Source: Thiobacillus denitrificans
Lineage (GTDB): Bacteria; Pseudomonadota; Gammaproteobacteria; Burkholderiales; Thiobacillaceae
Assembly: GCA_020723405.1 (NCBI GenBank)
Contig: DYIY01000005.1
Coordinates: forward strand, 124,001-188,000
Direction: 5' to 3'
Length of the DNA stretch: 64,000 nt
Shown in pieces: positions 1-15,963 of the stretch (positions are counted from its first letter, which is position 1; every line of letters begins with the position of its first letter). Below the pieces are notes generated by a model. It was given only the letters and a program-made list of their open reading frames with translations, made no database searches and was not told where the DNA came from. Both the position numbers and the translations under genes were made by a program.

Positions 1-2097
1 GACCAGCACAGAGAAGGTCGGGTATTCCGGTGCCAGATCGGTGAAATGGGTGCCCAGGGCCAGGCCGGACGTGACATTGACGATGTCGCGGAAGTTGGCG
101 CGCTCGTCAGGGCCCAGACGCAGCTTGTCGCGCATCGATACGCCCTTGGACCATTCCTGCAGGGTCTTGCTCTTGCCCTGGTAGGTAACCTCGAAGGCGG
201 TCATCTGCTTGTCCTGTAGCCACTTGCTCATGTCGCGCAGAGCATCCTTGGCCTTGTCCAGGTAGACGGCCTTGGCCGCGCCGCTGGCCGTGGATGCCAA
301 CTCTTGCGCGGCGGCGTAGAACGCCAGGTGACGTTTGATGGCGTCGTCCCGGCCCTTCAGCCGGAAGAACACCTCGTCATTCCGGCTTTCGTCGCGGAAG
401 CGTGGCGGCTCGAACGGCTGAATGAAGTAGATGTAGAAGTCGCGCTCTGGCTGGGCGGTGGGACGATCATTAGGGGCGCCGAGGAAGAGATAGCCGTTCC
501 GCTCGACGCGCCGATCCTGCCATTCGACCTGGTGCTGCCAAATCTTGTAGCCGGTGACGTAGGCGTGATCGTCGGTGCATTCCATGAGCTGCATCAGCGC
601 GCTGTAATAGGCGCGATCCAGCGCGTCGTCCGACAAAGCCTCGGCGCGCTTCTCGATCTGGGCGTCGTAGTCGACGTCCTTCTTCAGATCGAGGTAGTAC
701 TGTTCGGTGTCGGGTGCCTTGGAGATGAACTGGCCATTCACCGTTTTGACGATCTCGCGCAGGGTGGTCTGCACGGCAGTCAACAGATCGTCAGCGGGTT
801 CGCCGCCCATGTCTTCGATGCCCGGCTGGTACAGGCATAACGTGTCTCGGAGTTCGTTGGCTGTGGGGCCCACCGGGACGTAGATGTCACCGCCGGTGGT
901 CAGCCGGTATACCGACAGCCCCTTGATCACGCGCATGGCCATCGCCTTGTAGGCTGGCCGCGTAAAAGCCTTCTGCACGCGTTCGCCGAGGACTTCGGCC
1001 ACTTTCAAGACCGGGCCGATGTTCGGATCCGAACGCAGCACTGAATTGGTGGTGACCGTATCCCAGAACTTGTCGAAGCCGATCAGGCCCGGGCGGTCAC
1101 TCGGCACGTCTTCATTCAGGATGGCTTGGATCTGGTCACGCAGGGTCACCAGTGCGCCGCGCTTCTCGGTGAAGATGAGCCGCTCGAAGGTGCCGATGTA
1201 GTCTGGATGCACGGGGAACAAGCGGACGTACTCGTCCATTCGCTCGTTCATATTGCTGTAGAACTTGGCGAATGCAGTCAGGTAGGTGCGAATCTTGTGC
1301 TGTTGGTCGGCCGACTTCTTGAGCAAGCGTTCGGCCACCACAAAGCTCACATCCTGGCGGGCAAGCAGGATTTGGGTGAAGCGTTCATTGACCCGGCGCA
1401 GGCTGTCGGCAACGTGCTGGAAGCGGCTGCTGTCGAAGATGGCTTCCTGTACGCCGGCCACGAAACGGAAGCGCAGATGCTTGGTGACCTCGCCGATTTC
1501 GCGCAGGAATGATAGATCCAGTACGAGGTCGTGGTCCTTGCGTGAGCGCAGGAACTCAAGAAACTCGTCGACGACCAAGAGCACGCCGTGGTTGGGATGA
1601 ACCTCGGCAAAGGCGGCCATCATCTCCTCGAATGCCGCTTTGTTATTCACCACTTTGTCGGCGGGCGGGAAGGAATAGCTGACGCCGTGGCGCTCCAGGA
1701 AACTCTCAAGCTCCTGCGTGATGATGTCGCGCAGGGACATCTGGCTGGAGATTTCAATCCGATGCACCTTGAACTTGCCAGCAATCGCGCCGGCCGCTTC
1801 GGCAACCTTGGGGTGGTGGATCATCGGAACATACGCGCTGTCCTCGGCAATCAAGGACAGTACGGACATCAAGTGCGACTTACCGGTACCGTAATTGCCG
1901 ACCACGAGCACGCCCTTGTGATCGACAGATTCGTCGAACGACATCTGCGGAATCATCTGTTTGGCGATTCGCTCCGCCATATCGTCGGAAATGACGTAGG
2001 TGGCGACGAGCTTCTTCGCTTCGTCGGGGCGATTGGCGTCGAGCAGTTGGATGACTGACTCGATCGGCTCGAATTGAATGAGATCCCCGTAGCGCAT
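1..2097 (-). CDS. brxC: BREX type 3 BrxC/PglY-like ATPase (DUF6079), 3' end outside window
   Basis: The frame starts at the ATG at 2097 ([14 protein letters not shown]) and stays open for 699 codons to the window edge, so the C-terminal part is missing. A Walker A motif (GNYGTGKS, residues 67-74) and a Walker B-like stretch ([13 protein letters not shown], around residue 175) mark a P-loop ATPase. The N-terminus and the two motifs match my memory of the DUF6079 family, the large BrxC/PglY-like ATPase of type 3 BREX phage-exclusion loci, usually about 1,200 residues. It lies 9 bp after brxF in the same direction, the order expected for BREX-3. In such systems pglX, a helicase gene, pglZ and brxA normally follow; they would lie to the left of this window. 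Family assignment is confident; activity is inferred. Confidence 0.88.
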
Positions 2098-2106
2098 GTG
2101 TTCTCC

Positions 2107-2577
2107 CTATTGCTTCATTGTTCCGATTTCGAATGGGACCAACCCGTCCAGGCCGTAGTCCTGATATTCCGGATGTCCCATCTCGGCATAGCTCAAGCGA
2201 CCGTCACGAAGCACGCCCGGCCAACTGGCCACGACACGTTTGGCGTGCGCGTGCCGTTTCAGCTGGTCCAGCGGGTCGAGCTTGAGCGACTGATCGAATA
2301 ACAATTCGATGTTGTCGAGCAGAAGCAAGTCACCGCTGGCGTACTCCTCGGCAAGCTCCCGCATGACCACATTGGCCTGCAGGATCCGCTGGCGCTGCGT
2401 CATCCCCGCCAGACGCGTTCCCAACGCAGCGCCGACATTCATCACTTTCGCGCCTTGCCGAGCGGCCAGGTCAGAGAGCAACGCCGTCTTGCCAGAGCCA
2501 GGGGGGCCGACCAGCAAGACCAGTTTGCTTTGGAGAGCCGCCACCTCGTGGACCAGGGTTTCCAGTTGGTCGACCAC
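2107..2577 (-). CDS. brxF: BREX-3 P-loop protein BrxF
   Basis: A small ATPase of about 156 residues. Walker A is GPPGSGKT and Walker B is DLLLLDNIELLF. Size, motif layout and position directly before the DUF6079 ATPase identify BrxF, a hallmark of type 3 BREX; its role in exclusion is not established. I chose the GTG at 2577 because it follows an AGGA ribosome site and begins 2 bp past the stop of the upstream HTH gene. An ATG at 2622 would add 15 residues and overlap the HTH gene by 44 bp. The C-terminus (FEIGTMKQ) ends 9 bp before brxC, so the genes are almost certainly cotranscribed. Confidence 0.85.
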   Translation of the reverse strand: MVDQLETLVHEVAALQSKLVLLVGPPGSGKTALLSDLAARQGAKVMNVGAALGTRLAGMTQRQRILQANVVMRELAEEYASGDLLLLDNIELLFDQSLKLDPLDQLKRHAHAKRVVASWPGVLRDGRLSYAEMGHPEYQDYGLDGLVPFEIGTMKQ

Positions 2578-2578
2578 G

Positions 2579-2776
2579 TTATTCCTGACTCCCGGTGGTC
2601 TGACTCTTGATCCACTGTTCAATGTCTGATCGCTGGAAGCGCCAAGTGCCCCCTACCTTGAAGGCAGGGATTTTCTTGGCTCCGGCGAGGCGATAAACAG
2701 TCCGCTCGTTAACCTTCAGATAGTCCGCTACCTCTTTAATGGTCAGGATTGAGCCATCGCTAGATTTTGTAGGCAT
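2579..2776 (-). CDS. small excisionase-like HTH protein of the BREX-3 locus
   Basis: A 65-residue protein that is nearly all one MerR/excisionase-type helix-turn-helix. The core LTIKEVADYLKVNERTVYRL is followed by the wing KIPAFKVGGTWRFQRSDIEQW, typical of the HTH_17/excisionase DNA-binding family. It is the first gene of the brxF-brxC transcription unit and lies just downstream of a good promoter, so a role as local transcription regulator is likely. The ATG at 2776 gives the compact family length; a TTG at 2794 would add six residues. An excisionase role for the neighbouring serine recombinase is possible but not supported by distance or operon structure. Confidence 0.75.
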   Translation of the reverse strand: MPTKSSDGSILTIKEVADYLKVNERTVYRLAGAKKIPAFKVGGTWRFQRSDIEQWIKSQTTGSQE

Positions 2777-2802
2777 CTCGGTCGCCGGATACAAAAAACG
2801 TC

Positions 2803-2831
2803 AAGATAGTGCAATCCTGTACAAATGGCAA
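2803..2831 (-). promoter_or_regulatory. sigma-70-like promoter of the BREX-3 HTH-brxF-brxC unit
   Basis: On the minus strand, -35 TTGCCA (2831-2826) and -10 TATCTT (2808-2803) are separated by exactly 17 bp. A start near 2796 leaves a leader of about 20 nt before the ATG at 2776. This is pattern evidence only. Confidence 0.5.
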
Positions 2832-3177
2832 CGTGCAAGAAGCCCTGGTGCTGAAAAAGCAACGAAAAATCAGGCATCGGAGTAAAACTGACCGCTCGGC
2901 TGGTAAAGCTGGCGACCAACTGCCCCTCTTTGGCGGAATTATCCAAGTCCCCAGGCTCAGTAGGTGAGCCTGTGAAAATAGGGGGCCGCTGTTGGTGCAC
3001 TCCCCGCGCCCATGGAAATGCACAGGCCAGCGGCAAGCCTGTCAGCCGTCGCCCCGATCACAGGCAGAAACAGGACATCCGTTTCGGCGGCGACGACCCT
3101 ATTGCATCCGGATTGTTAAAGATCTACGTATCGCCCACACGGGCAGCACTACGACCTTCCGCTGGGAAGGATTTCGC
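2832..3177. other. non-coding gap between BREX-3 and the ParB/recombinase module, with inverted repeat
   Basis: About 345 bp without a convincing gene. It holds a perfect 8-bp inverted repeat, CAGGCTCA (2952-2959) and TGAGCCTG (2965-2972), with a 5-nt loop. On the minus strand it lies downstream of the repB-like gene but has no T-run, so it may be a weak terminator or a protein site. Short open frames cross the gap in several frames without a start, ribosome site or recognisable domain. The break in spacing suggests that the BREX operon and the recombinase operon are separate transcription units. Confidence 0.5.
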
Positions 3178-4059
3178 TCACTGATCGAGAGACGTCGTCT
3201 CGACGATGATTTCGAACTGTTCCAGTACCTCGGGTCGCCGTTGCTTGATGTAGCGGACGACCGATTTGTTATCGAGCAACTTGGCCAGGTAGCCACGGGC
3301 CAGTACGAGGTTGAGAACATCCTCGGCATAGGTCTGCTCGACCAGTTTGTATTGCCCTTGCAGGTTCGCCATCTCGCGCTCCATGCGTGACATCTGTTCT
3401 TGGGTGACACCGTTCAGCTTTGGCGGCTTCTTGCCTTCGACCAGCATCTCGGCCGGCGTAGCGACGAGCAATGCTTCTGCGTAAGAGACGGTGATGTTGT
3501 TGGCTGAGACCATCAGTTCGATGCACTCGACCTGGCGGGTCGGCTTCATTTTCCGGATCACCCGGCTGATCTCGGCGGAGAACTGCCTGTCCTTCAGCAG
3601 ATCGGCGGCCTCAGGACAAATCCCGTCCAGGAGCGTGGCCTTCTTGATGATGTGGCTGACGTCGACGCTTAGTGCCTTGGCAAGGCTTTCCATCGACACG
3701 CCACGCTCGATGGCGCGGCGAATCATGAAATGCTCTTGGATCGTGGACAGGCGGTTGATCCGGCTGTTGTACGTATAGGCCTCATCGTCCTTGGCCACAA
3801 GGCAGGGGGCTTCCTCATAGCCGAGTTCAGCCAGGGCGATCAGGCGCACATGCCCGTCGAGCAGGGTGTGCTGGCCAGTGACCTTGTTCGCCTCGGTGAC
3901 CGACAGCGGTTCAATCAGGCCAATGTGCTCGATGGAGGATCGAATCTGCTTGAACTTGACCGAGGTGATCAGCCCGGTCGGTGTTTTCCGAGAGGGCAGA
4001 ATCTTGTCCAGGGGGACCGATAGTGCATCGGGTATGAAGCCGAGCGGGACGTTGGTCAT
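3178..4059 (-). CDS. RepB/ParB-like protein, last gene of recombinase-ParB-RepB trio
   Basis: 293 residues. The N-terminal half is a ParB/sulfiredoxin-type fold: positioning motif IEPLSVTEANK and DGHVRLIALAELG in the box where ParB proteins carry the GERR-like nucleotide site. A central HTH-like helical region follows (MESLAKALSVDVSHIIKKA). The C-terminal half resembles the RepB C-terminal domain of plasmid partition proteins, ending in a helical and probable coiled-coil region (MSRMEREMANLQGQYKLVEQ). Its start overlaps the stop of the upstream parB-like gene by 4 bp (ATGA), so the two are translationally coupled. No ParA partner is present, so classical plasmid partition is unlikely. The real role is unknown. 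Confidence 0.75.
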   Translation of the reverse strand: MTNVPLGFIPDALSVPLDKILPSRKTPTGLITSVKFKQIRSSIEHIGLIEPLSVTEANKVTGQHTLLDGHVRLIALAELGYEEAPCLVAKDDEAYTYNSRINRLSTIQEHFMIRRAIERGVSMESLAKALSVDVSHIIKKATLLDGICPEAADLLKDRQFSAEISRVIRKMKPTRQVECIELMVSANNITVSYAEALLVATPAEMLVEGKKPPKLNGVTQEQMSRMEREMANLQGQYKLVEQTYAEDVLNLVLARGYLAKLLDNKSVVRYIKQRRPEVLEQFEIIVETTSLDQ

Positions 4060-4958
4060 GCCGAACTCCCTCCGGACCAGACGCGATCGGCCAGGTATTC
4101 GGGCAGGGAGTCCAGTCCCTCGGCACGCAGCAGATTGATGAAATTCTCGTCGGCGAAAAATTGCCGTAAGGCGCTCACCACGAACAAGAGGCGCTGCTGG
4201 GCAAACTCAGCCTTCTTGACGATGATCTTCTGGCGTTCGACTTCCCGTTGGTAGGTGCGGACCAGGCTGGATGTCGACACGTCTACCGGCTTGCGGCGCG
4301 TGGCCCGGGCCATCGATCGTCCGAGGGTCTGCCGGCGCTCGATGATCTTGCGTACCTCCATCAATTGGCGGCCACGCAACTTGCCGCACTCGTAGGCTTC
4401 CTGCAACGCGGCTTGCACGGCCTTGTCGTCATCGCCGGCACCAACAATGGTCAGGGCAGCATTGAGGGGCACTCGTCCTTTCTCGACAGCAACGAGCAGT
4501 CTTTCCTCACCTTGCTGCAACAGCGTCAGGATGCCGGTCACGTAGACCTGAGTGAGCCCAGTCTTGGTGGCGATCTCCTTGGGGTTGTACCCCTTGTCAC
4601 GCAGCTGCTTGATGCCAGCGAGAATCTCCAGCGGCCGGCATTGGCGGCGGGCGATGTTCTCGGCCAGGCTCATGATGAAGGCGTCCTCATCACTGACGGA
4701 GATTACGAGTGCCGGAATGGTCGCCTCCCCGAGATTCCTGAATGCGTTGAGGCGCCCCTCGCCACACACCAGGAGATATCGCTCCTGATCGTCGTCACCC
4801 ATGCGGGGTGTAACGGTGATCGGTTTCTTCAGGCCGATGGCCTTGATGTTGCCGACGATCTCATCGAACACACGCTTGTTCCGGTCGCGCGGATTGAGGA
4901 TATCGATCCGATCGACGGGAATCATGCGGATTTCGCTGTTGCGGTGTTTCGGGGTCAT
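4056..4958 (-). CDS. ParB-like DNA-binding protein, middle gene of recombinase trio
   Basis: 300 residues. A ParB N-terminal domain is clear: IPVDRIDILNPRDRNKRVF, then KPITVTPR and CGEGRLNAFRNLGE. The sequence SLAENIARRQCRPLEILAGI resembles the conserved ParB segment that binds nucleotide and DNA. An HTH follows (NPKEIATKTGLTQVYVTGIL). The C-terminus is basic and helical. It overlaps both neighbours by ATGA junctions (4958/4955 and 4059/4056), so all three genes are made from one message. Two different ParB-like proteins without ParA next to a serine recombinase suggest target-site recognition or synapse control, which is inference. Confidence 0.8.
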   Translation of the reverse strand: MTPKHRNSEIRMIPVDRIDILNPRDRNKRVFDEIVGNIKAIGLKKPITVTPRMGDDDQERYLLVCGEGRLNAFRNLGEATIPALVISVSDEDAFIMSLAENIARRQCRPLEILAGIKQLRDKGYNPKEIATKTGLTQVYVTGILTLLQQGEERLLVAVEKGRVPLNAALTIVGAGDDDKAVQAALQEAYECGKLRGRQLMEVRKIIERRQTLGRSMARATRRKPVDVSTSSLVRTYQREVERQKIIVKKAEFAQQRLLFVVSALRQFFADENFINLLRAEGLDSLPEYLADRVWSGGSSA

Positions 4959-6523
4959 GCCGCTCTCCTCAGTCTTGCACGGGCACCCATGCCGTAGAGG
5001 TAGTCCAAGGTTTCGAAGCGATAGCTCTCGAATTCGATGGCGTTCCGATCGGCCAGGTTGATCCCGGGTTGTCCGAAATCCAATCGCGGTAGCAGGTAGT
5101 AATCGAGCGGCGACCGATTGGCATGATCGAGGCGCACGGCAACAGTGACGTCGGGGCTCAGGCTGGTGTCGAAGCGCACCTTCCAGCGGTGACTGCCGCT
5201 CTCGTTAGTCTGGCACCGCGCCAGCACCAGGGAGACACTGAACTCGTCATTGACGCGCAGAAGGTCGGTGGCCGGATCACGGACTACCAAGCCGCCGATG
5301 GCGCCGATCTCGGCTTCCGTTCGGGCCACGATCTCGGGATGCAGCTGACGAAGGAAACGGTTGACCTCCAGATAGCGGTAATCGCGATCGGGGGTGAAGC
5401 CAACCATCTGGTAGGCGCGAATCAGGCTGCCGAAACGATGAACATAGACCGAGGCCGACGGCATGCCCTCGGTTTCGTCGATGATCAGGCCGGAAAGGAT
5501 GCCTCGATTCTCGTAGAGGCTGCGCAGGCGCTCGATCAACTCCTCGTCGGTGTAGCGCCGGGCACGTGCCCGCATGATCCCTTGGGCGGTGTAGAACAGA
5601 TCGGGCTGGACGATGGCCTCGAAGGCACCTTCCTTCTTGATCCACATATCAGGGGTATTCACCACCCGGGTCTTCTTGAGCTTGAAGGAAATCCGGTTGT
5701 AGACGTTGTTGCCGATGTACTTCTCGTTGGTCAGTACCTCATTGACGGTGGCGCGCGTCCATTCCCGATCAAGGTCAGTGCGTACCTTCATGCCATTCAG
5801 TCGCCCGGCAATTTGAGATTCCGACAGTCCCTCCTCAATGAACCACTGGTAGATCAGATTGACGATACGAGCCTCGTCGTCGGGGCCGGGCATGAGGATC
5901 ACGCGATCGGTCTGTAGGCTTTTGTGCTCGCCACGAGCCAGTTCGCCCTTCATGGATCCGTTCTGGTCGACCAGGATGCGGCGGAGTCCATAACCGGCAG
6001 GGCCGCCCTGGCGGTAGCCGAGTTCGATCAGGCGACATTGGCCGGCGAACACCTTGGCCGACAATTCCCGGCTGTACTCGCCGGCCATGGCCCGCTTGAC
6101 GCCCTTGACGATGGTGGAGACGGGCGAGCCATCGTTCTCGAACTGCTCGGCGCAGTAGGCGACCTGGATGCCGGCGCGGCGGCAGATGTACTCGTAGTAA
6201 GCACTCTCATCGGCATCCTGAAAACGCCCCCAGCGACTGACGTCGTAGACCAGGATGACCTGGAAATCAGCCTGCCCCGACTCGACATCGTGGATCAGCC
6301 GCTGGAGGGCCTGCCGGCCATCGATGCGCAGACCGCTCTTGCCCTCGTCGGCATAGGTCTTGATGATCTCGATGCCACGCCGGGCTGCGTATTCCTTGAT
6401 CTTGTCGGCCTGGTTCTCCGTGGAATACTGCTGGTGCTCGGTCGACATCCGCACATACTGTGCTGCCCGGAATAGGGAGGCTTGGGTCTGTCCATCGCCA
6501 TCTGTGTTTTCTTGTTCTTGCAT
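4955..6523 (-). CDS. large serine recombinase (resolvase/invertase plus recombinase domain)
   Basis: 522 residues. The N-terminal resolvase domain has AAQYVRMSTEHQQYSTENQ with catalytic Ser27 in RMST, then VILVYDVSRWGRFQD and the helix MAGEYSRELSAKV. The recombinase domain follows (GYRQGGPAGYGLRR, then LNGMKVRTDLDREWTRATVNEVLTNEKY split over two conserved blocks). The usual zinc-ribbon cysteines are not evident. Instead the C-terminal 150 residues are a different, family-specific region. It is the first gene of the trio and overlaps parB by ATGA. Large serine recombinases integrate or excise mobile DNA, so this is probably the mobility enzyme of the island, though no attachment sites are obvious. 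Confidence 0.85.
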   Translation of the reverse strand: MQEQENTDGDGQTQASLFRAAQYVRMSTEHQQYSTENQADKIKEYAARRGIEIIKTYADEGKSGLRIDGRQALQRLIHDVESGQADFQVILVYDVSRWGRFQDADESAYYEYICRRAGIQVAYCAEQFENDGSPVSTIVKGVKRAMAGEYSRELSAKVFAGQCRLIELGYRQGGPAGYGLRRILVDQNGSMKGELARGEHKSLQTDRVILMPGPDDEARIVNLIYQWFIEEGLSESQIAGRLNGMKVRTDLDREWTRATVNEVLTNEKYIGNNVYNRISFKLKKTRVVNTPDMWIKKEGAFEAIVQPDLFYTAQGIMRARARRYTDEELIERLRSLYENRGILSGLIIDETEGMPSASVYVHRFGSLIRAYQMVGFTPDRDYRYLEVNRFLRQLHPEIVARTEAEIGAIGGLVVRDPATDLLRVNDEFSVSLVLARCQTNESGSHRWKVRFDTSLSPDVTVAVRLDHANRSPLDYYLLPRLDFGQPGINLADRNAIEFESYRFETLDYLYGMGARARLRRAA

Positions 6524-6689
6524 CGCCGCGTCGTCCCCTTACATGCGAAAAGATGCCTCTCGAACATCGGGCGTCACTTCGCGACGGGTGGTTGGTCAAG
6601 GCATACACGGGTCGAGTCGGATTCGGATGCTCGATAGTTCGAGAACGCACACGCGGGAAGTTAACAGGCGGCAGCGATGTCGCCGAACA

Positions 6690-6860
6690 CGTCCTCATTT
6701 GCAATCACACGTCTTCAGCAGCCGGGATCGCAGTCAGGACAGTAATCTCGACAATCCATGCGTCCTCGCTGGGTGTCCCATCAGTGGAGAGCCGCACCAT
6801 TCGGTAGCGACCGCAAGGCGGCGGACAGAGGGGGCGTGACGCGTCCTCATTTGCAATCAC
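6690..6860. repeat. 19-bp direct repeat at 6690-6708 and 6842-6860
   Basis: The sequence CGTCCTCATTTGCAATCAC occurs twice, 152 bp apart. One copy lies inside the zinc-finger gene and the other spans its stop codon and the start of the gap before the recombinase. The gap also holds CTCGA-TAGT-TCGAG near 6630-6642. A tandem duplication or a recombinase-related site are both possible. Confidence 0.7.
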
Positions 6861-7145
6861 CGATGCCCGGAGCTTCCGGTTTCGCTGTTGCTGTAGAGTT
6901 CGATTGCGTTCAGCGTAGACGGGATTCTCGTCTCGGTACTGTTTCCAGTACGCCGGGTTCTCTGCAGCCCATGCCTTGCTGGCACGCGTATCGTTGTCAC
7001 AGTAGTCGGCGTCGTCACGCCGCTTTTGCTGCTGCCAGCGCCGACGGCGTTCGCGTTGACACTTTGGGTTTGGGCAGTAGGTCTGCTGTCGAATTCTCGG
7101 GTTGGGTTCAAATGCCTGACCGCATGCGGCGCATCGTTTTTCCAT
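6705..7145 (-). CDS. small zinc-finger protein of unknown function upstream of the recombinase
   Basis: 146 residues from the ATG at 7145, chosen because GGAG lies 6 bp upstream; in-frame starts at 7157 and 7184 have no such site. The N-terminus carries CAACG followed by YCPNPKCQ, a four-cysteine zinc knuckle, then a very basic stretch (RERRRRWQQQKRRDDADY). After that comes a Trp/Tyr-rich repeat-like region (AENPAYWKQYRDENPVYAER). I remember similar uncharacterised proteins beside serine recombinases in diverse bacteria but cannot name the family. The composition suggests nucleic-acid binding. It lies 181 bp upstream of the recombinase start in the same direction. A 19-bp direct repeat brackets its 3' end. 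Confidence 0.65.
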   Translation of the reverse strand: MEKRCAACGQAFEPNPRIRQQTYCPNPKCQRERRRRWQQQKRRDDADYCDNDTRASKAWAAENPAYWKQYRDENPVYAERNRTLQQQRNRKLRASVIANEDASRPLCPPPCGRYRMVRLSTDGTPSEDAWIVEITVLTAIPAAEDV

Positions 7146-7296
7146 GACTGACTCCATACGAACAAAAAGTCGTATGGGTGCCATGGGTTTATATCTCGAT
7201 GTTTTTTAAATAAATACAGATGGAATTTTTGGGGGCGGATATGTAAGGGGAAAGAGACGGTCGATGATCTGGTGCTGAACTCGCAGCTTCACAAAA

Positions 7297-7333
7297 TGTC
7301 AACTAGAGTGTAAAGTGTCAAACCGACTGTCAA
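7297..7333. promoter_or_regulatory. three TGTCAA direct repeats before the TIGR04255 gene
   Basis: TGTCAA occurs at 7297-7302, 7316-7321 and 7328-7333, immediately upstream of the ribosome site (AGAGGAGAG) of the gene starting at 7346. The spacing is irregular (19 and 12 bp). These repeats may be an operator for the HTH protein of the same operon. The surrounding 160 bp between divergent transcription units is AT-rich. Confidence 0.3.
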
Positions 7334-7345
7334 GAGGAGAGTGCT

Positions 7346-8149
7346 ATGGGTGAGAAGATGAAGAACGCGCCGGTGTACTTCGCCATCGCCCAAGTTCGCC
7401 ACAATCCTGTGTTGCGCCTTGGCGCATACGCCGACGAGATCCAGGACCGGATGCGGAAGGTTGGTTACCCCGATTTCAAGAAAGGGGTGGCGATGGCCTT
7501 TTCGTTGATGCAGCAAATGGGCGATCAACAACCGAGTCAGCCTCCCGTTGTCGAACGGGTTGAGCGTTTGATGTTTTTCAATTCAGATAACACTCAAGGT
7601 TTCATCGTCGAGCAGAACGCCATTTCCTTCCACACCACTGAATACGATGTCTTCGATACATTCGCAGATGAATTCATGAAGGGTGTCGGGATTGTTCACG
7701 AGTGTGTAACCCTCGCCCATACTGAACGCATCGGCTTGCGATATCTGGATGCCGTAGTTCCTCCAAATGGCGAGGATGGCCTGCCTGACTATTTGGCTTC
7801 CGGTGTCTTGGGCCTTAGCAGCAAGTTGCCTCAAGACATTCAGGTGACGCATTCATTTTCTGAAACTCATTTCAGAACAAACGAATGCGCAGTATTGGCC
7901 AGAACTATCATCCAGGCTGGACCACTGGGGTTCCCGATGGATATTCAACCCATCGGGGTTAAGATTGCCGATAGGTTCCAAAAGATTAATGGCGTCCATG
8001 CGATCGTCGACACTGACGCGTCGATTGAAGGACGCCATTCGATGAATCTGGACGCAGTGAAAAGTCAGCTGAAAACGCTCAGGAGTGGCATTGATGTTGC
8101 GTTTACTGCCATCGTCACCCAGTTAGCATTGGATGCCTGGAAGAGCTGA
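7346..8149 (+). CDS. TIGR04255 family protein
   Basis: 267 residues. The pattern KNAPVYFAIAQVRHNPVL near the N-terminus, the central RLMFFNSDNTQGFIVEQNAI, and ERIGLRYLDAVVPP are typical of the TIGR04255 family. That family is sporadically distributed, of unknown function, and often found in accessory DNA. A second in-frame ATG at 7358 is possible, but 7346 has the stronger upstream AGAGGAGAG. It is followed within 15 bp by the HTH gene and begins a three-gene rightward operon. No catalytic motif is visible. Involvement in host defence is a guess based on location beside BREX. Confidence 0.75.
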   Translation: MGEKMKNAPVYFAIAQVRHNPVLRLGAYADEIQDRMRKVGYPDFKKGVAMAFSLMQQMGDQQPSQPPVVERVERLMFFNSDNTQGFIVEQNAISFHTTEYDVFDTFADEFMKGVGIVHECVTLAHTERIGLRYLDAVVPPNGEDGLPDYLASGVLGLSSKLPQDIQVTHSFSETHFRTNECAVLARTIIQAGPLGFPMDIQPIGVKIADRFQKINGVHAIVDTDASIEGRHSMNLDAVKSQLKTLRSGIDVAFTAIVTQLALDAWKS

Positions 8150-8164
8150 AGACCGGGAGAGATC

Positions 8165-8836
8165 ATGTTTGCACAATACCGGGCACCCGAGCCAACGCGA
8201 CAAGTTCATCGCGCCACGGCGGTAGCCTTTGAGGATGACTTCGATGATCAGCCGACAAGCGTTCGCGAGAATATCGGCGGACGAGTATTGGTTTATTGTG
8301 TAGCTGGAACATTCGGCCTGCTTTTGCCGGCCTATATACAAGCAAGTACAGCAACATCGAATTGGGCAATTAACCAGATTGAAGTAGATGGCGTGCACTC
8401 AGCAGCAGTTGGTGCCGCATCTGCGACAGCCCAGAATATTGCACACATTCGGCAAGCCACGAAAATCTCCGTTACTGAACTTGCCCGGGCGTGCGGCGTA
8501 TCACGGCAAGCGATGTACGAATGGATCAAGGGTGGCCCGCTATCGACAAGAAATGCCCAGCGCATCTCCGATCTAGCGCAGGCAGTTGATGTCATCCTTG
8601 CATCGGGAGTCGAAGCATCGCCACAGACATTGCGGCGCAAAATTAGTGGCGGCACGTCAATTCTGGATGCAGTTCAGGCTGATGGAAAAGTTGTCGATCT
8701 CGCCACGCAGCTCGTTGGTACGTTAGTGCGAGAGTCTGAGCAGAGAAATCGGCTTGCCGCCCGACTGGCTGGCCGCCAGAAGTCTCAACTGTCTTCCACT
8801 GAGTTTGGGGCGCCCCATCTCAATGAAGATGCGTAG
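8165..8836 (+). CDS. protein with hydrophobic segment and C-terminal HTH
   Basis: 223 residues, start supported by GGGAGAG upstream. After an acidic N-terminus, one hydrophobic stretch (GGRVLVYCVAGTFGLLLPAY, about residues 38-57) could span the membrane once. It is followed by a Cro/C1-like helix-turn-helix (ISVTELARACGVSRQAMYEW, about residues 102-121) and then a helical, basic region. HTH proteins of this type next to TIGR04255 genes recur in my memory of bacterial genomes. A DNA-binding protein with a membrane anchor would be unusual; the hydrophobic segment may instead be buried. It may regulate its own operon through the TGTCAA repeats. Confidence 0.7.
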   Translation: MFAQYRAPEPTRQVHRATAVAFEDDFDDQPTSVRENIGGRVLVYCVAGTFGLLLPAYIQASTATSNWAINQIEVDGVHSAAVGAASATAQNIAHIRQATKISVTELARACGVSRQAMYEWIKGGPLSTRNAQRISDLAQAVDVILASGVEASPQTLRRKISGGTSILDAVQADGKVVDLATQLVGTLVRESEQRNRLAARLAGRQKSQLSSTEFGAPHLNEDA

Positions 8837-8847
8837 GAAGTCTGTAA

Positions 8848-9699
8848 ATGGCAGACTCCGGCCGGCAGTTCTCTTGGCGTCAAGGTGACTTACTCACCAG
8901 CGAGGCAGCAGTAGCACTTGGCTACTGTCCCCAGGACGATGCTGACGCCACATTCGTTGTCGTTATTTCGCACGACTGCGACCTGACTGCAGAGATAGAA
9001 AAAGAGCCGCAGGCAGAGCTGATAATTGGTCGGCGCATCGACAAATTGGGTGGTGACTCCTACGGAAAAACCGCGCGACGGCTTCACATCGAATACCAGA
9101 CCCAGGATGGCCCAGTCGTCATTGAGTTGATGGCCACTGCCAAGCGGCTGATCGAAAAGCAGACTCTGTTCGAGTTTTTCCCTCGGACAGATGTAAGACT
9201 GGACGGCCGAGGAATAGGAATTCTCCAGCGATGGCTTGCAGCCCGTTATCACCGAGCTGCTTTTCCTGAAGCATTCGAGAACCGCCTACGATCTGCGGTT
9301 GTTCCCGGCAAGCGTACATTCCTCAAGAAAATTGAAATCATCCTCTCTGACGGCGGCGAACACATACGTGGCCTATTGTTCGATTTGGATGAGGGGAAAG
9401 ATGTTGAGCGCAATGCACCTGACGACGTGTACCAGTTAGGGATCAATGTCTTGTACGACAGCACCAAGGACGAACCCACTGCAGCTGCAGTAGCCGAAGC
9501 GGCTGCGCGCGCACTAGAGGCCCTGTTCAGCACAGCGTTTTACTCGGAACAAGCTGGTTGGCAGAATATTCGTCTCGAGTACTGCGATCCAATATCGGAC
9601 AGTGGAATAACCGTAGCGCAGCGAGAAATGCTCAAGCAATGGAGGCTGGAACATATGAGCCTTCAGGATGACCCGCCGCAGCCGATGATCAGCGCATAA
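8848..9699 (+). CDS. unknown protein with SHDCD motif, third gene of TIGR04255 operon
   Basis: 283 residues with AGGAAG 7 bp before the ATG. The N-terminus reads FSWRQGDLLTSEAAVALG and then TFVVVISHDCDLTAEIEKEP. The Ser-His-Asp-Cys-Asp cluster after a hydrophobic strand looks like an active or metal site and is the only clear motif. The middle is basic and Arg-rich. It follows the HTH gene by 11 bp, so the three genes form one operon. I do not recognise a named family. Proteins with RQGD and S-x-DCD near the N-terminus next to TIGR04255 genes seem to be a recurring, undescribed association. Confidence 0.6.
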   Translation: MADSGRQFSWRQGDLLTSEAAVALGYCPQDDADATFVVVISHDCDLTAEIEKEPQAELIIGRRIDKLGGDSYGKTARRLHIEYQTQDGPVVIELMATAKRLIEKQTLFEFFPRTDVRLDGRGIGILQRWLAARYHRAAFPEAFENRLRSAVVPGKRTFLKKIEIILSDGGEHIRGLLFDLDEGKDVERNAPDDVYQLGINVLYDSTKDEPTAAAVAEAAARALEALFSTAFYSEQAGWQNIRLEYCDPISDSGITVAQREMLKQWRLEHMSLQDDPPQPMISA

Positions 9700-9764
9700 A
9701 TGGTCTAGATCGGAAAATGTCGCGCCCGTCAGATTCCGGAGATATATGCAAAGACGAGGAACGT

Positions 9765-10118
9765 ATGCGATTCAAAGAATTTGCCGGTCTGCAGACGATA
9801 ACGGATGTCGTCATTACCACTGACGGCGGTACGAGTGAGTTACTGCACGAGGGTAAATGGATCCCAGGACGTTTTGACAGAAATATCCGTATTGACCAAC
9901 CGACCCACGGTGCAGGGCAGACTCATGCACATGTGTTGGGCCGGAAGGGCGAAGAAATTGGGGTTGTGAACTTTGACGGGTCAGGCAGTCATGGGACGAA
10001 GTGCCGCTTAAGCAATGACGATGCTGATGCTTTGCGTGCAAGGGGTTTTCAAATTCGTCCTGGAAATATTGTCGAATGGGTCTTCGTTGCTGGAGGTTGC
10101 CGACTATTGCTTGAGTAA
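9765..10118 (+). CDS. unrecognised 117-residue protein
   Basis: The ATG at 9765 follows GAGGA by 4 bp and gives MRFKEFAGLQTITDVVITTDGG; an ATG at 9717 would add 16 unlikely residues. The centre is rich in His and Gly (THGAGQTHAHVLGRKG, then GSGSHGTKCRL). It ends soon after EWVFVAGGCRLLLE. The conserved-looking histidines could form a metal or catalytic site, but I cannot assign a family. It lies 65 bp after the TIGR04255 operon in the same direction and could be its fourth gene or an independent cargo gene. Confidence 0.55.
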   Translation: MRFKEFAGLQTITDVVITTDGGTSELLHEGKWIPGRFDRNIRIDQPTHGAGQTHAHVLGRKGEEIGVVNFDGSGSHGTKCRLSNDDADALRARGFQIRPGNIVEWVFVAGGCRLLLE

Positions 10119-10245
10119 GAACTGTGGTATCTCACAGCGAATTTGATTGTGTATTCCGGAACCGAACTCCAAACCATCGAAACGAGAACTGGCTGGGTTG
10201 AATGATTGAGCTTTCGGTGGGATTTGAGGTGGGCCCTGCCCAAGG

Positions 10246-10527
10246 TCATTGCCTACCGATGCGGAGCCCGGCAACGACATCTTTGATTGTTAGCAATCGG
10301 GCGGGTTGATCTGGCGCTCGCTCATCTAGCGTCGGCAGATCGCGGGGAACCGGTTTGCGCAGACCTTGACGCTCGAATTCGAGAACGTCGCTCATCGCGT
10401 AACGCACCGTTTGGCCCAACTTGAGGAAGGGCGGGCCGCGTCGGATGGTGCGCCACCGCGTCAGGGTCTTGGCGCTCATCTTCCAGCGCGCCGCCAGTTC
10501 TTGCTCGGTAAGGAATTCGTCGGGCAT
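10246..10527 (-). CDS. AlpA-like excisionase/HTH regulator
   Basis: 93 residues from the ATG at 10527, preceded by GGAGGA at good spacing. MPDEFLTEQELAARWKMSAK starts an AlpA/excisionase-type helix-turn-helix with wing PPFLKLGQTVRYAMSDVLEF. Proteins of this kind sit next to the immunity/C4 RNA region in P4-like satellites and control integrase expression. Here a C4-like RNA lies 91 bp upstream on the same strand, which fits that arrangement. No integrase or other satellite genes are visible nearby, so this is probably a remnant or the edge of the island. Confidence 0.75.
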   Translation of the reverse strand: MPDEFLTEQELAARWKMSAKTLTRWRTIRRGPPFLKLGQTVRYAMSDVLEFERQGLRKPVPRDLPTLDERAPDQPARLLTIKDVVAGLRIGRQ

Positions 10528-10617
10528 TTCGTCCTCCAGTGGGTTGCCCCGATGAAGGCGCTGTCCCGCGCCGATAGCAAGAAAAACCAGCGAGTTTCGC
10601 GTACAATCCTCGCCCAT

Positions 10618-10686
10618 TGGTGCTGGCACTCGCCGGTGCAATCCACGCGCAGCCGCAGTCGGTTTCGTGGCGTCGCGTCAGCACCA
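10618..10686 (-). ncRNA. C4 / P4-CI-like antisense RNA
   Basis: On the minus strand an 8-bp closing stem (TGGTGCTG at 10686-10679 with CAGCACCA at 10625-10618) encloses two hairpins. Hairpin 1 has stem CCACG/CGTGG (10670-10666 with 10647-10643) and a loop containing AAACCGACTGCGG. Hairpin 2 is GCAC-CGGCGA-GTGC (10639-10626). This three-way layout, the roughly 69-nt size and the AAACCGACTG loop match what I recall of the C4 antisense RNA family of phages P1/P7 and the CI RNA of satellite P4. These set immunity by pairing with the downstream leader. It lies just upstream of an alpA-like gene. Structure is seen; the family match is from memory. Confidence 0.65.
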
Positions 10687-10696
10687 CCACTTTTTG

Positions 10697-10723
10697 AAGG
10701 CCAGACGCTGCTCTGGCCTTTTT
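10697..10723 (+). terminator. hairpin with T-run
   Basis: AAGGCCAGA (10697-10705) pairs perfectly with TCTGGCCTT (10712-10720) around a 6-nt loop, followed by TTT and C. In the plus direction this is a good intrinsic terminator. On the minus strand the hairpin lies just upstream of the C4-like RNA and could be part of its leader. Confidence 0.55.
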
Positions 10724-10969
10724 CACGTCTGCCCGCCGCGCCAGTGCTGGCGCGGGTTCCCGGATTCGGAGCTGGTGCAGCTTGAGGATGCGGGTGAATT
10801 GGTCCATAGGGGCCTCCAGTAAGCAGCATAGTTGCTTTGTCGCGTCTCCTTTGGAAGCGTGCTGGCGTCACTTGCAGAATCCTGCAAATCCTGGGTATGG
10901 GATGAAAAGACAGGGCGACGAATAGCTGTCCTACAATCACGCCATCGATTGCCAACCAGAGGTGGAGCC

Positions 10970-11527
10970 ATGGGCCTGCCACAAGCGCAAGCCACGCTGA
11001 CCCGAGCCGAGTTCGTCACCTGGGAAAACCAGCAGCCGGACAAGCACGAGTTCGTTGCGGGCGAGGTCTTTGCCATGGTGGGGGCGCGGCGGGCCCATGT
11101 GACGATCTCGCTCAACATCGCGGCCAGGTTGAAGGATCACCTGCGCGGCGGCCCATGCCGGGCCTACATGGCCGACATGAAACTGGAAGTTCAGACCGCC
11201 GACGCCATCTTCTACCCCGACGTGATGGTGACCTGCCATCCCGACGACCTGAAGGCGGAGATGGTGATGCATCACCCCCGGGCCATCATCGAAGTCCTGT
11301 CCGAGAGCACCGCCGCCTATGACCGGGGCGACAAGTTCGCTGCCTACCGGCAAGTGGACAGCCTCCAGGAATACGCCCTGATCGACCCGGACCAGCGCCG
11401 GGTGGAAGTCTTCCGCCGCATGGACAATGGCGACTGGCTGCTGGCGGCCAGTGAAAGCGGCCAGGGGCTGATCCTCAAGAGCCTGGATTTCACCGCCGGC
11501 CTGGACGCGGTTTTCGAAGACATCTGA
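10970..11527 (+). CDS. Uma2 family (DUF820) restriction-endonuclease-like protein
   Basis: 185 residues, start preceded by GGTGGAG. The Uma2 pattern is clear: EFVTWENQQPDKHEFVAGEV, then FYPDVMVTC, RAIIEVLSEST and YDRGDKFAAYRQ. Asp, Glu and Lys fit the PD-(D/E)XK layout of the family. The family is widespread and mostly uncharacterised; many members are solitary, as here. High GC and codon use match the downstream core genes rather than the island. It ends 9 bp before coaBC in the same direction. An inverted repeat (TTGCAG-AATC-CTGCAA, 10872-10887) lies upstream. Confidence 0.85.
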   Translation: MGLPQAQATLTRAEFVTWENQQPDKHEFVAGEVFAMVGARRAHVTISLNIAARLKDHLRGGPCRAYMADMKLEVQTADAIFYPDVMVTCHPDDLKAEMVMHHPRAIIEVLSESTAAYDRGDKFAAYRQVDSLQEYALIDPDQRRVEVFRRMDNGDWLLAASESGQGLILKSLDFTAGLDAVFEDI

Positions 11528-11536
11528 CGGGACATC

Positions 11537-12724
11537 ATGGAACTCAAGCGCATCCTCCTCGGCGTCACCGGCGGCGTGGCCGCCTACAAGGCAGCGGAAC
11601 TGGCCCGGCTCATGGTCAAGGACGGCCTGGACGTGCAGGTGGTCATGACCGAGGCCGCCCGCCACTTCGTCGGCGCCGCCACCTTCCAGGCCATCACCGG
11701 CCATCCGGTGTTCTCCGACCTGTGGGACGAGCGGGTGGACAACGGCATGGCCCACATCGACCTGTCCCGGGGAGTGGACGCCATTCTGGTGGCGCCGGCC
11801 TCCGCCGACTTCCTGGCCAAGCTGGTCCAGGGCCGGGCCGACGACCTGCTCTCCACCCTCTGCCTGGCCCGGGACTGCCCCCTGTTGCTGGCCCCGGCCA
11901 TGAACCGGCAGATGTGGGAAGCGGCCCCCACCCAGCGCAACGTGGCCCAGTTGCAGGCCGACGGCGTGTCCCTGCTGGGCCCGGATTGCGGCGAACAGGC
12001 CTGCGGCGAAGTGGGTTTCGGCCGCATGCTGGAACCGGAGGACCTGCTGGAAGCCGCCCAGGCCCGCTTCCAGCCCAAGCGGCTGGCGGGCCTCAAGGTG
12101 CTCATCACCGCCGGGCCCACCTTCGAGCCCATCGACGCGGTGCGCGGCATCAGCAATTCCAGTTCCGGCAAGATGGGCTACGCCGTGGCCCGGGCGGCCC
12201 TGGAAGCCGGCGCCGAAGTCACCCTGGTGACCGGCCCCACCTGTCTCACCCCGCCACGGGAGGCCGTCACCAAACGGGTGACCAGCGCCCAGGAGATGCT
12301 GGGCGTGGTGGAGGAAGCGGCGGATGGCGCCGACATCTTCATCAGCGTGGCCGCCGTGGCCGACTACTACGTGCTCAACCGCAGCGAGCAGAAGATCAAG
12401 AAGGACGCCCACATCCTCACCCTGGAACTGGCCCCCAACCCGGACATCCTGGCCAACATCAGCAGCCGGCCCAAGCCGCCCTTCTGCGTGGGCTTCGCCG
12501 CCGAGAGCGAGAACGTGGAGGAATACGCCGAGCTGAAACGGCGGCGCAAGCACCTGCCCCTCATCGTGGCCAACGACGTAAACGAGGCCATCGGCAGCGA
12601 CGACGTGCAGCTCATCCTGCTGGACGAAGGGGGCCGGCACGTACTGCCCACCGCCGACAAGCGCAGCCAGGCGCGGCGGCTGATCGCCCATATCGCCATG
12701 CTGTATAACCAGAAGTATCAGTAA
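11537..12724 (+). CDS. coaBC: bifunctional phosphopantothenoylcysteine decarboxylase / phosphopantothenate-cysteine ligase
   Basis: 395 residues, the usual length. The CoaC half (residues 1 to about 190) binds FMN. It shows LGVTGGVAAYKAAEL, the catalytic-His region GMAHIDLSRG, APAMNRQMWE, and the active-Cys loop GPDCGEQACGEVGFGRM. The CoaB half shows ITAGPTFEPIDAVRGISNSS and SGKMGYAVA, with EQKIKKD as the nucleotide-binding lysine region. It makes 4'-phosphopantetheine from 4'-phosphopantothenate for coenzyme A, using CTP. The coaBC-dut order (here with a toxin-antitoxin pair between them) is common in Proteobacteria. Confidence 0.96.
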   Translation: MELKRILLGVTGGVAAYKAAELARLMVKDGLDVQVVMTEAARHFVGAATFQAITGHPVFSDLWDERVDNGMAHIDLSRGVDAILVAPASADFLAKLVQGRADDLLSTLCLARDCPLLLAPAMNRQMWEAAPTQRNVAQLQADGVSLLGPDCGEQACGEVGFGRMLEPEDLLEAAQARFQPKRLAGLKVLITAGPTFEPIDAVRGISNSSSGKMGYAVARAALEAGAEVTLVTGPTCLTPPREAVTKRVTSAQEMLGVVEEAADGADIFISVAAVADYYVLNRSEQKIKKDAHILTLELAPNPDILANISSRPKPPFCVGFAAESENVEEYAELKRRRKHLPLIVANDVNEAIGSDDVQLILLDEGGRHVLPTADKRSQARRLIAHIAMLYNQKYQ

Positions 12725-12755
12725 ACGGGTTCCTCAAGACGCGGGAAGACTATTC

Positions 12756-12980
12756 ATGGATTACCAAGGCATCATCACCATCGAGCCCGGGAAGAGGGGG
12801 GGCAAACCCTGTGTGCGCGGGCTGCGCATCACCGTGTATGAGGTCCTGGAATACCTGGCATCAGGCATGAGCCCGGAGGACATCCTGGGGGATTTTCCCT
12901 ATCTGACCCGGGAAGACATCCTGGCCTGCCTGGCATTTGCGGCTGATCGGGAGAAGCACCTCAGCGCATTGGCAGCATGA
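12756..12980 (+). CDS. DUF433 antitoxin-like protein
   Basis: 74 residues with the DUF433 signature: GKRGGKPCVRGLRITVYEVL, then LASGMSPEDILGDFPYLTREDI. DUF433 proteins have an HTH-like fold and pair with DUF5615 PIN-like partners as probable type II toxin-antitoxin systems. Here the partner overlaps its stop by 4 bp (ATGA). The pair sits between coaBC and dut, which are usually adjacent, so it was probably inserted there. Confidence 0.88.
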   Translation: MDYQGIITIEPGKRGGKPCVRGLRITVYEVLEYLASGMSPEDILGDFPYLTREDILACLAFAADREKHLSALAA

Positions 12981-13309
12981 AGCTGTTGTTCGACGAGAAC
13001 CTGTCTCCCAGGCTGGTTCGGGTCGTGGAAGCCGCTTTTCCTGACTCCGCCCACGTCCATGATCTGGGGCTGGGCAATACGGAGGACATGCAAGTCTGGG
13101 CTTACGCCCGAGATCACGGCTTCGACCTGGTTACCAAGGATGCCGACTACAACGATCTTGGCCTCTTGCGCGGCTACCCGCCGCGCATTGTGTGGATACG
13201 CAGAGGCAACTGTTCAACCGCAGACATCGCGGACCTGTTGACCCGTCGCATTCCCGATATTCAAGCCATGCAGGACGACCCTGCAACTGGCGTTCTGATT
13301 CTGTTCTGA
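12977..13309 (+). CDS. DUF5615 PIN-like toxin
   Basis: 110 residues. KLLFDENLSPRLV, the FPDSAHVHDLGLG strand, and FDLVTKDADYNDLG are the three conserved acidic blocks of DUF5615 (Mut7-C/PIN-like) proteins. The aspartates would coordinate Mg2+ for RNA cleavage. It is coupled to the DUF433 gene by an ATGA overlap, giving the standard antitoxin-toxin order. Toxicity has rarely been shown for this family, so the toxin label is inference. Confidence 0.88.
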   Translation: MKLLFDENLSPRLVRVVEAAFPDSAHVHDLGLGNTEDMQVWAYARDHGFDLVTKDADYNDLGLLRGYPPRIVWIRRGNCSTADIADLLTRRIPDIQAMQDDPATGVLILF

Positions 13310-14469: not shown

Positions 14470-15963
14470 TCACTGCGGGCGTCGCCGGCCCGCCCGCGCG
14501 GCCCGCCAAAGCAGCAGGACCGCAAGCAACGCGGCGGGGTAGTTGCCGAACCGCAGATAGGGCGTCAGTCCGCTCCGTCCCTGGGCCTGCCCGTCCAGGC
14601 TCCCGGCAGTGAAGGGCGCCAGGGCGGCCAGGGTCCTGCCCTTGTGGTCCAGGATGGCGGTCACCCCCGTGTTGTTGGCCCGCAGTTGCCAGCGCCCCGC
14701 TTCCAGGGAGCGCAGGGCGCCGATCTGCAGGTGCTGCCAGGGGGCCAGGCTGGCGCCGAACCAGGCGTCGTTGCTGATGTTGACCAGCAGGGTGGCGTCC
14801 CGGGCGGCGTGGATGCGTTCCTCGCCGAACACGTCCTCGTAGCAGATGTTCACCGCCAGACGCTGGCCGGCGGCGGCCAGGGGCGGTTGGTCCGCCTCCC
14901 CGGCGCTGAAGTCCCCCAGGGGGATGGACATCATGTCCACCGCCCAGCGGAATCCGAAGGGCACGAACTCGCCGAAGGGCACCAGGTGGACCTTGCGGTA
15001 AAGGCCTTCCGGGCTGGTGCCCAGGGTCAGGGCGCTGTTGTAGTAGCGTTCCGGGCCGGCGTCTTCGGGAATGCCCAGGAGCAGGTCGCCGCCCCGGGCC
15101 CGGGCGTGGTCCGCCAGCAATTGCAGGTAGTCCGGCGGCACGCTGGAACGGAACAGGGGCAGGGCCGTTTCCGGCAGCACGATGAGGCGGGCCCGGCTGG
15201 CCAGCACGGCCCGGGCGTAATGGTCCAGGGTGGCCTGGAGCTTCTCCGGGCGGAACTTCATGTCCTGGGCGATGTTGCCCTGAACGAGGCTGACCCGGAC
15301 GGGCTCGCCCTCCGGGCGGGTCCACTCCACCTGTTGCAGGGCCCAGGCGGACAGCCAGAGGGCGGCCAGGGTGGCCAGGGCGTAGGCGCGGCGGTTACCC
15401 CCGCCCCCGGCAGAAGGGAGCAGAACCACCAGCAGGCCGGCGCTGAGGGCGGCCAGGAGGCTCAGGCCATAGACGCCCAGCAGCGGGGCGAAGCCGGCCA
15501 GGGGGCTGTCCGGGGCCTGGGAATAGCCCAGGGCCAGCCAGGGAAACCCGGTGAACAGCCAGCCCCGCACCCATTCCAGCAGGGTCCAGGCGGCGGGCAG
15601 GGCCAGGGCCGTCCGGCGCCAGCCCGGCGGGGCCAGGCGGGCGGCCAGGGCCAGGGCCAGGGCGGGCAGCAAGGCCACGAAGGCGCAGAACAGCAGGGTG
15701 GCCAGGGCCGCCACCGGGGCCGGCATGCCGCCGTACACGGAAATGCTCACGTACACCCAGGACACCCCGGCCAGGAAGTGCCCCAGGCCCCAGGCCCAGC
15801 CCAGGCGGAAAGCCCGGCCAGGCGCGGCGTCCCGGGCCAGCAGGAAAAGGCCGGCCAGACCCAGGATGGCCAGGGGATACCAACCCAGGGGGGCGAAGCC
15901 GGCCACCGCCAGGGCACCCGCCAGGGCGGCCAGCCCCGGCCGGGCGAATGAACGCAAGGTCAT
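14470..15963 (-). CDS. lnt: apolipoprotein N-acyltransferase
   Basis: 497 residues, with several N-terminal membrane helices and a periplasmic nitrilase domain. The catalytic triad regions are visible: LPETALP (Glu), KVHLVPFGEFVPFG (Lys) and VNICYEDVFGEE (Cys). It transfers a third acyl chain to the N-terminal Cys of lipoproteins at the inner membrane. It lies 39 bp downstream of the MoaD-like gene on the same strand. No corC/mgtC-type neighbour, common for lnt, is visible here. Confidence 0.96.
   Translation of the reverse strand: MTLRSFARPGLAALAGALAVAGFAPLGWYPLAILGLAGLFLLARDAAPGRAFRLGWAWGLGHFLAGVSWVYVSISVYGGMPAPVAALATLLFCAFVALLPALALALAARLAPPGWRRTALALPAAWTLLEWVRGWLFTGFPWLALGYSQAPDSPLAGFAPLLGVYGLSLLAALSAGLLVVLLPSAGGGGNRRAYALATLAALWLSAWALQQVEWTRPEGEPVRVSLVQGNIAQDMKFRPEKLQATLDHYARAVLASRARLIVLPETALPLFRSSVPPDYLQLLADHARARGGDLLLGIPEDAGPERYYNSALTLGTSPEGLYRKVHLVPFGEFVPFGFRWAVDMMSIPLGDFSAGEADQPPLAAAGQRLAVNICYEDVFGEERIHAARDATLLVNISNDAWFGASLAPWQHLQIGALRSLEAGRWQLRANNTGVTAILDHKGRTLAALAPFTAGSLDGQAQGRSGLTPYLRFGNYPAALLAVLLLWRAARAGRRRPQ

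Follow-up and report, generated by a model that had tools for sequence, protein, structure and literature searches.

A conserved serine recombinase-ParB-RepB gene trio beside a BREX-3 operon of Thiobacillus denitrificans as a likely site-specific recombination module

We analyzed a stretch of 64,000 nucleotides from Thiobacillus denitrificans (contig DYIY01000005.1, positions 124,001 to 188,000; hereafter the window), in which a block of four genes on the minus strand reads from position 7145 to 3178. The block encodes, in this order, a small zinc-finger-like protein (Znf), a serine recombinase and two proteins of the ParB/RepB type, ParB1 and RepB2 (Table 1); the last three genes are referred to as the trio. 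The recombinase and ParB1 genes overlap in an ATGA at 4955-4958, as do the ParB1 and RepB2 genes at 4056-4059. The four genes, their strand, the two overlaps and an adjoining BREX-3 system had been described in an earlier note on this DNA, and all of them were confirmed at the positions given there. The span of the note, 3178-7145, holds the genes but leaves out a conserved non-coding tail at about 2977-3177. The block is present in a single copy in its own genome.

Table 1. Features of the four-gene block and of its surroundings, with positions in the window unless another contig is named.
Feature	Position	Strand	Remark
Znf, small basic four-Cys (zinc-finger-like) protein, 146 aa, first gene of the block	6705-7145	minus	
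Serine recombinase, 522 aa	4955-6523	minus	
ParB1, ParB_N and RepB-type protein, 300 aa	4056-4958	minus	
RepB2, diverged ParB-fold protein, 293 aa	3178-4059	minus	
Conserved non-coding tail, ends at the downstream block boundary	2977-3177	minus	homology ends, alignment A4
boxA-like motif CTTTAACA	3114-3121	minus	
Imperfect palindrome GCCGCTG...CAGCGGC at the boundary	2985-3034	minus	conserved in alignment A4
Inverted repeat CCATACGA..TCGTATGG, directly upstream of the znf start	7154-7177	none	read from sequence
Start of the neighbouring BREX-3 operon (helix-turn-helix protein, BrxF, part of BrxC), outside the module	1-2776	minus	
Prophage, left of the window	L183 ~7000 to L181 ~5141		terminase, portal, head and tape-measure genes

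The trio is conserved as a unit. A search of genome contigs with an alignment of RepB2 recovered at least 573 relatives among 591 candidate stretches, of which the best 80 were taken as genome-contig loci, so that this sample leans toward the window's own group. Relatives of RepB2 were also found in 76 viral-contig loci, and the recombinase matched 222 plasmid records, 60 of them across at least 80% of its length. With genes called by a codon-usage script of our own, the order recombinase-ParB1-RepB2 was kept in 128 of the 131 loci with room, which bears out the statement in the earlier note that the trio recurs in unrelated genomes. The recombinase gene ended in ATGA in 89 and the ParB1 gene in 99 of at most 131 loci, counts that refer to the end of the upstream gene alone. 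On one plasmid (L004), both partition genes form a single open reading frame of 594 aa. Among 61 genomes, including that of the window, two had a strong match (G000, G022) and 13 had weak generic matches only. One or two further, diverged serine recombinases were seen near the trio in six loci (L006, L022, L036, L054, L074, L076).

The recombinase matches the Pfam families Resolvase (5e-24) and Recombinase (PF07508, 7.8e-23). Residues R25, S27, D94, R97 and R100 of the catalytic motifs (YVRMST, DVSRWGR) are each conserved in at least 95% of 134 recombinase sequences, and the enzyme is therefore probably active. Two of the parts that define large serine recombinases were found, the resolvase domain with the catalytic Ser and Arg and the Recombinase (RD) domain, but the zinc-ribbon/coiled-coil part was not. 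No zinc-ribbon domain was detected by Pfam at E 0.01, although a diverged version may be present, and residues 324-376 match HNH_repeat weakly, below the cut-off of that family. In the predicted model (mean pLDDT 81.9, pTM 0.46), the C-terminal half is helical and then beta-rich, and the best Foldseek matches to this model were serine integrase-att complexes, over about 327 columns. The best NCBIfam match was CcrB (7.9e-17, residues 19-178), with a score of 61 bits versus a cut-off of 900, and the recombinase is therefore not a member of CcrB.

ParB1 and RepB2 each match PF07506 (RepB) and ParB_N, with the ParB_N score of RepB2 under the Pfam cut-off, and the label "RepB-like" thus suits both proteins. 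The nearest solved relatives of ParB1 are Spo0J, Noc and ParB. In 141 sequences, ParB1 retains CG(E)GR, of which the E is less conserved, and ENxARR, which we take to be the CTP-binding motifs; judged by these motifs, ParB1 would qualify as a CTP-dependent ParB clamp. RepB2 has a predicted fold like that of Noc and ParB (mean pLDDT 81.7, pTM 0.53), and its conserved motifs in 157 sequences are LDGHxR, DDE..TYN and QEH, without the EN..R form; the region of the nucleotide pocket is altered yet conserved. None of the four block genes matched a ParA-type ATPase in Pfam, which disfavors normal partition, as the earlier note had argued.

At E 0.01, neither Pfam nor NCBIfam gave a match for the Znf protein, the four cysteines of which are conserved to at least 90% in 90 aligned loci. 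The znf gene stands in front of the trio in 72 of 72 genome-contig, 10 of 45 viral-contig and 3 of 9 other loci with room, and because of the low number in viral contigs it is not an essential partner across the whole family. In four copies that were inspected (L008, L009, L010 and L131), a different small gene on the opposite strand, without Pfam match, lies in its position. CCATA/TATGG versions of the inverted repeat upstream of the znf start occur in several relatives, and this repeat may serve as an operator or mark the left boundary. The 3' part of the znf gene is spanned by a 22-bp direct repeat (95%; 6687-6708 and 6839-6860, 152 bp apart).

An all-against-all comparison of diverged copies revealed a shared block of about 4 kb with sharp edges and differing flanks. 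The left limit lies directly upstream of the znf start. Downstream of RepB2, the point at which homology ends is nearly constant within each group. In the window's group it lies some 200-270 bp past the end of RepB2; a group carrying one extra gene breaks off at about 1,360-1,530 bp, and a Burkholderia group after no more than some tens of bp. In the window, the homology stops at 2977-2985 in comparison with L012, L015, L059, L065, L072 and L097, and at 3005-3023 in comparison with others. The tail contains CTTTAACA, presumably a boxA-like antitermination motif. Of 158 loci, 18, mostly from one related group, have this motif no more than 600 bp from RepB2 and none has it at 600-3000 bp, as compared to fewer than one expected from the background rate. 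Genes past this tail are often on the opposite strand.

Other downstream ends were seen in other groups. The extra gene (L044:10886-12250 and relatives) encodes a protein of about 410-450 aa without Pfam match, and the module in this group ends at a repeat-rich ATTTCGCT tail. In L061, a 17-bp direct repeat (12341-12357, 15165-15181) flanks a 2.8-kb segment inserted at the downstream end of the module. A structured element of about 115 nt was found downstream of RepB2 in L130:918-1080 and 23 other loci (alignment A5), which are related in sequence and come from viral contigs except for L007, a Sphingobium plasmid. The alignment has 26 pairs, 9 of which changed on both sides, and a covariation score above all 500 shuffles, while its number of pair types was reached by 39 of 500 shuffles. 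The element had no Rfam match at the gathering score; it could represent an RNA or else a folded module end. Rfam gave no match in window 1-13000 at E 1, and none at the gathering score in five relatives, with one chance-level match.

Several candidate end structures and targets were rejected. The palindrome at the window boundary folds no better than shuffles (2970-3060, z 0.42), and the groups share only CGAAC-like fragments at their ends, too weak for a universal end motif. Of 60 sources scanned with ARAGORN, 58 of which were trio loci, 4 contained tRNA genes, which does not support tRNA genes as targets. The first all-against-all comparison had pointed to an integron-like cassette array on the downstream side of the trio. 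This idea was abandoned: the 15 insertions inspected were, as far as could be told, ordinary gene gain or loss with no common junction sequence.

The ends of the block were compared with DNA lacking it in Agrobacterium. With the trio copy of the C58 plasmid and its flanks as query, the 40 records listed of 150 included a 3.9-kb block in a second plasmid context at 96.9%, with differing flanks. In plasmids without the block, the AbiE flank ends, and the Fic flank begins, at the two edges of the block. A site of about 20 bp of the form CCTTGANNNRRRTYGAACC is located at each edge, in the same orientation at both ends. At a junction, the two halves of the site are each similar to a different partner, and such apparent hybrid half-sites fit the expectation of exchange inside the site. 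The site, which we take to resemble a tRNA T arm read backwards, occurs 36 times in seven plasmids (3.28 Mb) at up to one mismatch, as compared to 2 occurrences of the reversed pattern. Its orientations per plasmid are 0+7, 5+0, 1+1, 4+1, 0+3, 2+7 and 0+5, with a single orientation in four of the seven.

Internal homology endpoints fell on a site in both copies in 18 of 40 cases, as compared to an expectation of about 0.8% per copy; the stretches compared here and for VapBC were picked for holding a site, a choice that would not on its own cause homology to stop at sites. At three places on two plasmids, two sites enclose a VapBC segment of about 890 bp (99% identical); one right-hand site has two mismatches, and the right flank is common to two of the three. 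AbiE, Fic and VapBC genes are bounded by the same site in the absence of the trio, and other sites are located between metabolic genes. A neighboring segment in Roseomonas has inverted repeats at its termini; it is probably an insertion sequence and unrelated.

A similar comparison was made in beta-proteobacteria with the AbiE pair that stands next to the trio in L065, for which 72 of 399 genomes searched had some match. Two AbiE copies without the trio (L223, L222) end within about 10 bp of the left boundary of the trio. L223 keeps the full site of about 20 bp, TCGCCACGGTCAGTGGCGG, that adjoins the AbiE pair in L065, and L222 keeps its right half; L221 ends some 50 bp before, and other AbiE matches end earlier still. 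In L239, TCGCCACGGTCAGTGGCGG stands next to other DNA. The far end of a larger element was sought in beta-proteobacteria and not found.

On these grounds we lean, with moderate confidence, toward the view that the stretch between 2977 and about 7190 forms a self-contained module for site-specific recombination, mobile as a unit of some 4 kb. The module is conserved and is probably mobile; in one clade, Agrobacterium, there is good support for exchange at short sites, and from there we infer such exchange for the window's own block. The recombinase would cut at sites of about 20 bp and insert or excise the module by conservative strand exchange, sometimes carrying neighboring cassettes along. 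As a zinc ribbon was not detected in the recombinase, ParB1, with its CTP-binding motifs kept, and RepB2, with its altered pocket, are the candidates for binding near the ends and steering the sites; the pair may help to pick or synapse the sites, or set the direction. The Znf protein could be a repressor of the operon or a clade-specific accessory factor. To judge from the sequences, the data are compatible with the ParB pair and the Znf protein as regulators of recombination. We propose that the module resides in defence islands because such recombination assembles and exchanges these loci.

Several results weigh against the module as proposed. No convincing direct repeat was found at both ends in the window's own group. 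Among the 40 of 150 records listed for the Agrobacterium query, none has the complete empty site, an AbiE-site-Fic junction. The exact Agrobacterium-type site stands at the trio ends in L008 alone among the trio loci scanned, and six other trio loci have single matches with 3 mismatches. In beta-proteobacteria, the exact AbiE-end site was present in one copy in 8 of 17 genomes, with at most one each among the matches listed, and looser matches numbered 158 versus 83 in the control in these 17 genomes, so that dispersed cassettes are not demonstrated there. The DNA past the L223 site was not found at the far end of any trio-bearing genome searched; it occurs in its own genome and one other, and four trio-bearing genomes share just 29 bp with it at the site.

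The distribution of the sites is a further point on this side. Across the phylum, 19 of 398 genomes carry the exact Agrobacterium-type site, as compared to 2 genomes for the reversed control, and 7 of the 16 genomes of one family (f95, presumably Rhizobiaceae) hold 12 of all 25 sites. The three genomes of this family with the most sites (4, 2 and 2 exact) lack a recombinase relative at E 0.001, and its seven genomes with a full-length relative carry 0 or 1 site. Owing to this mismatch, either the trio acts in trans with quick gain and loss, or another enzyme uses the sites, and the dispersed sites may indeed belong to another enzyme.

A somewhat unlikely alternative is that the trio serves prophages or larger islands for their integration, with the recombinase as integrase and the ParB pair serving the excised form. 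The viral-contig loci speak for it, and some of the trios in them point at genes that are presumably tail genes. The BREX-3 system next to the block, of which the BrxH helicase, PglZ and a BrxA-like protein lie to the left of the window, runs leftwards and is followed on the same contig by a complete-looking prophage that ends beside the BREX-3 operon. In Paracoccus prophages, a large serine recombinase cluster has been described for which integration sites were not identified (PMC6536676), and these recombinases may be members of the trio's family. However, RepB2 matches only 1 of 50,697 records in a phage collection, the prophage beside BREX-3 has its own candidate recombinase-like gene (L183 7531-8898, identified from the N-terminal sequence only), and the 3.9-kb block of Agrobacterium moves alone.

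We consider it unlikely that the trio is a passenger cassette moved at the short sites by a different recombinase, with its own enzyme acting locally in regulatory inversion or resolution. Such an arrangement would agree with the sites dispersed on plasmids and in genomes in which no recombinase relative was detected, and with the VapBC, AbiE and Fic segments that employ the same sites as the trio. Set against this, the trio has a site at both ends, and in the site-bearing plasmid segments for which annotation was viewed, its recombinase is the sole site-specific recombinase named, alongside insertion sequence transposases and an "excisionase".

The module reading can be carried further, to a serine-recombinase counterpart of integrons. 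Mobile cassettes of toxin-antitoxin, abortive-infection and further genes, each with sites of about 20 bp in the same orientation at its ends, would then be exchanged by the recombinase. A CTP-switch ParB clamp and a diverged RepB would govern both site choice and synapsis, and the trio would also act in trans on cassettes in replicons without the module. We regard this extended version as doubtful.

Very improbable is a role of the trio as a defence system, in which ParB clamps and the recombinase would act against invading DNA. The neighbors of the trio are often defence genes. Among the first two called downstream genes, 136 proteins were listed, and after removal of 22 copies of one group's extra gene the remaining 114, cut to at most 450 aa, matched 393 PADLOC families in total, many per protein. 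Among the matches listed, the top PADLOC families were WYL with 8 members and DrmD with 5, and the Pfam matches included WYL (8), Recombinase (6), DUF499 (6) and JetD (2). None of the 29 proteins of a small control matched PADLOC; these were drawn from 41 called at loose-pattern matches in 17 genomes, after 12 that touched locus ends or had frame errors were dropped. A shared transcription unit with this cargo was rejected, the first downstream gene being on the plus strand in 44 and on the minus strand in 31 of 75 loci, where the former count takes in copies of one group's extra gene. For the block itself, by contrast, the only PADLOC match among the four genes is a weak one on RepB2 (PDLC03229, 5e-4), and the mobile sharp edges and the presence in viral contigs also speak against defence. 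The earlier note had suggested a mobile or defence module: the first half is upheld by the sharp edges and by the exchange of the Agrobacterium block at short sites, and the second found no support. Hardly credible, finally, is an ordinary plasmid-partition cassette beside an unrelated recombinase, since, although both partition-like proteins match the RepB plasmid-partitioning family, ParA is missing from the four genes, the recombinase is fixed in the operon and many copies lie in genome-assembly contigs of hundreds of kb to Mb.

If the block is a recombination module as we propose, a widespread and unnamed trio would be part of the machinery that shuffles defence and toxin-antitoxin genes, and ParB-type DNA clamps would be employed in recombination instead of segregation. 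A novel mode of site choice is conceivable for a serine recombinase that lacks the usual zinc ribbon, and the module may help to carry bacterial immunity genes between genomes.

Full-text searches of the open-licence literature, a scope that leaves preprints aside, found no description of the trio. It is not described in the accessible parts of PMC10853773, PMC9203015 and PMC4231840, and the word recombinase is absent from the accessible part of a BREX survey (PMC12839542). The earlier note likewise knew of no functional account of the trio. A different integration module, in which a serine recombinase (DsiB/DsiA) goes with a gene for a ParB-domain protein, has been described from islands of Dehalococcoides (PMC3146451). 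This ssrA-island module is similar in having a serine recombinase of about 540 aa (called a CcrB homolog) and a ParB-domain protein in synteny, at the edge of islands with varied cargo. It differs in a second, smaller serine recombinase, RecF-like, Mom and other genes, and attachment at ssrA, whereas the block analyzed here has two ParB/RepB-type proteins, the znf gene and intergenic sites, and no DsiA.

The Ccr recombinases of the staphylococcal cassette chromosome (SCC) are related through CcrB, the best NCBIfam match of the recombinase, albeit far under the cut-off. SCC cassettes insert at short repeated sites, but to our knowledge they have no ParB pair, and we know of no rlmH target in the trio module. 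Integron cassettes and pdif modules are single genes or operons, often toxin-antitoxin, that are likewise exchanged at short repeated sites, but they use tyrosine recombinases and other sites; the trio has a serine recombinase, and its sites are dispersed, with no array demonstrated. The large serine integrases of phages (SPbeta, phiC31, Bxb1), which work with small directionality factors, share the catalytic and recombinase domains with the trio recombinase, which in contrast has no detected zinc ribbon, a different C-terminal half and ParB-type partners. These partners have the ParB_N, helix-turn-helix and RepB domains in common with RepB, Noc and Spo0J, from which the trio differs by the absence of ParA and by the altered pocket of RepB2.

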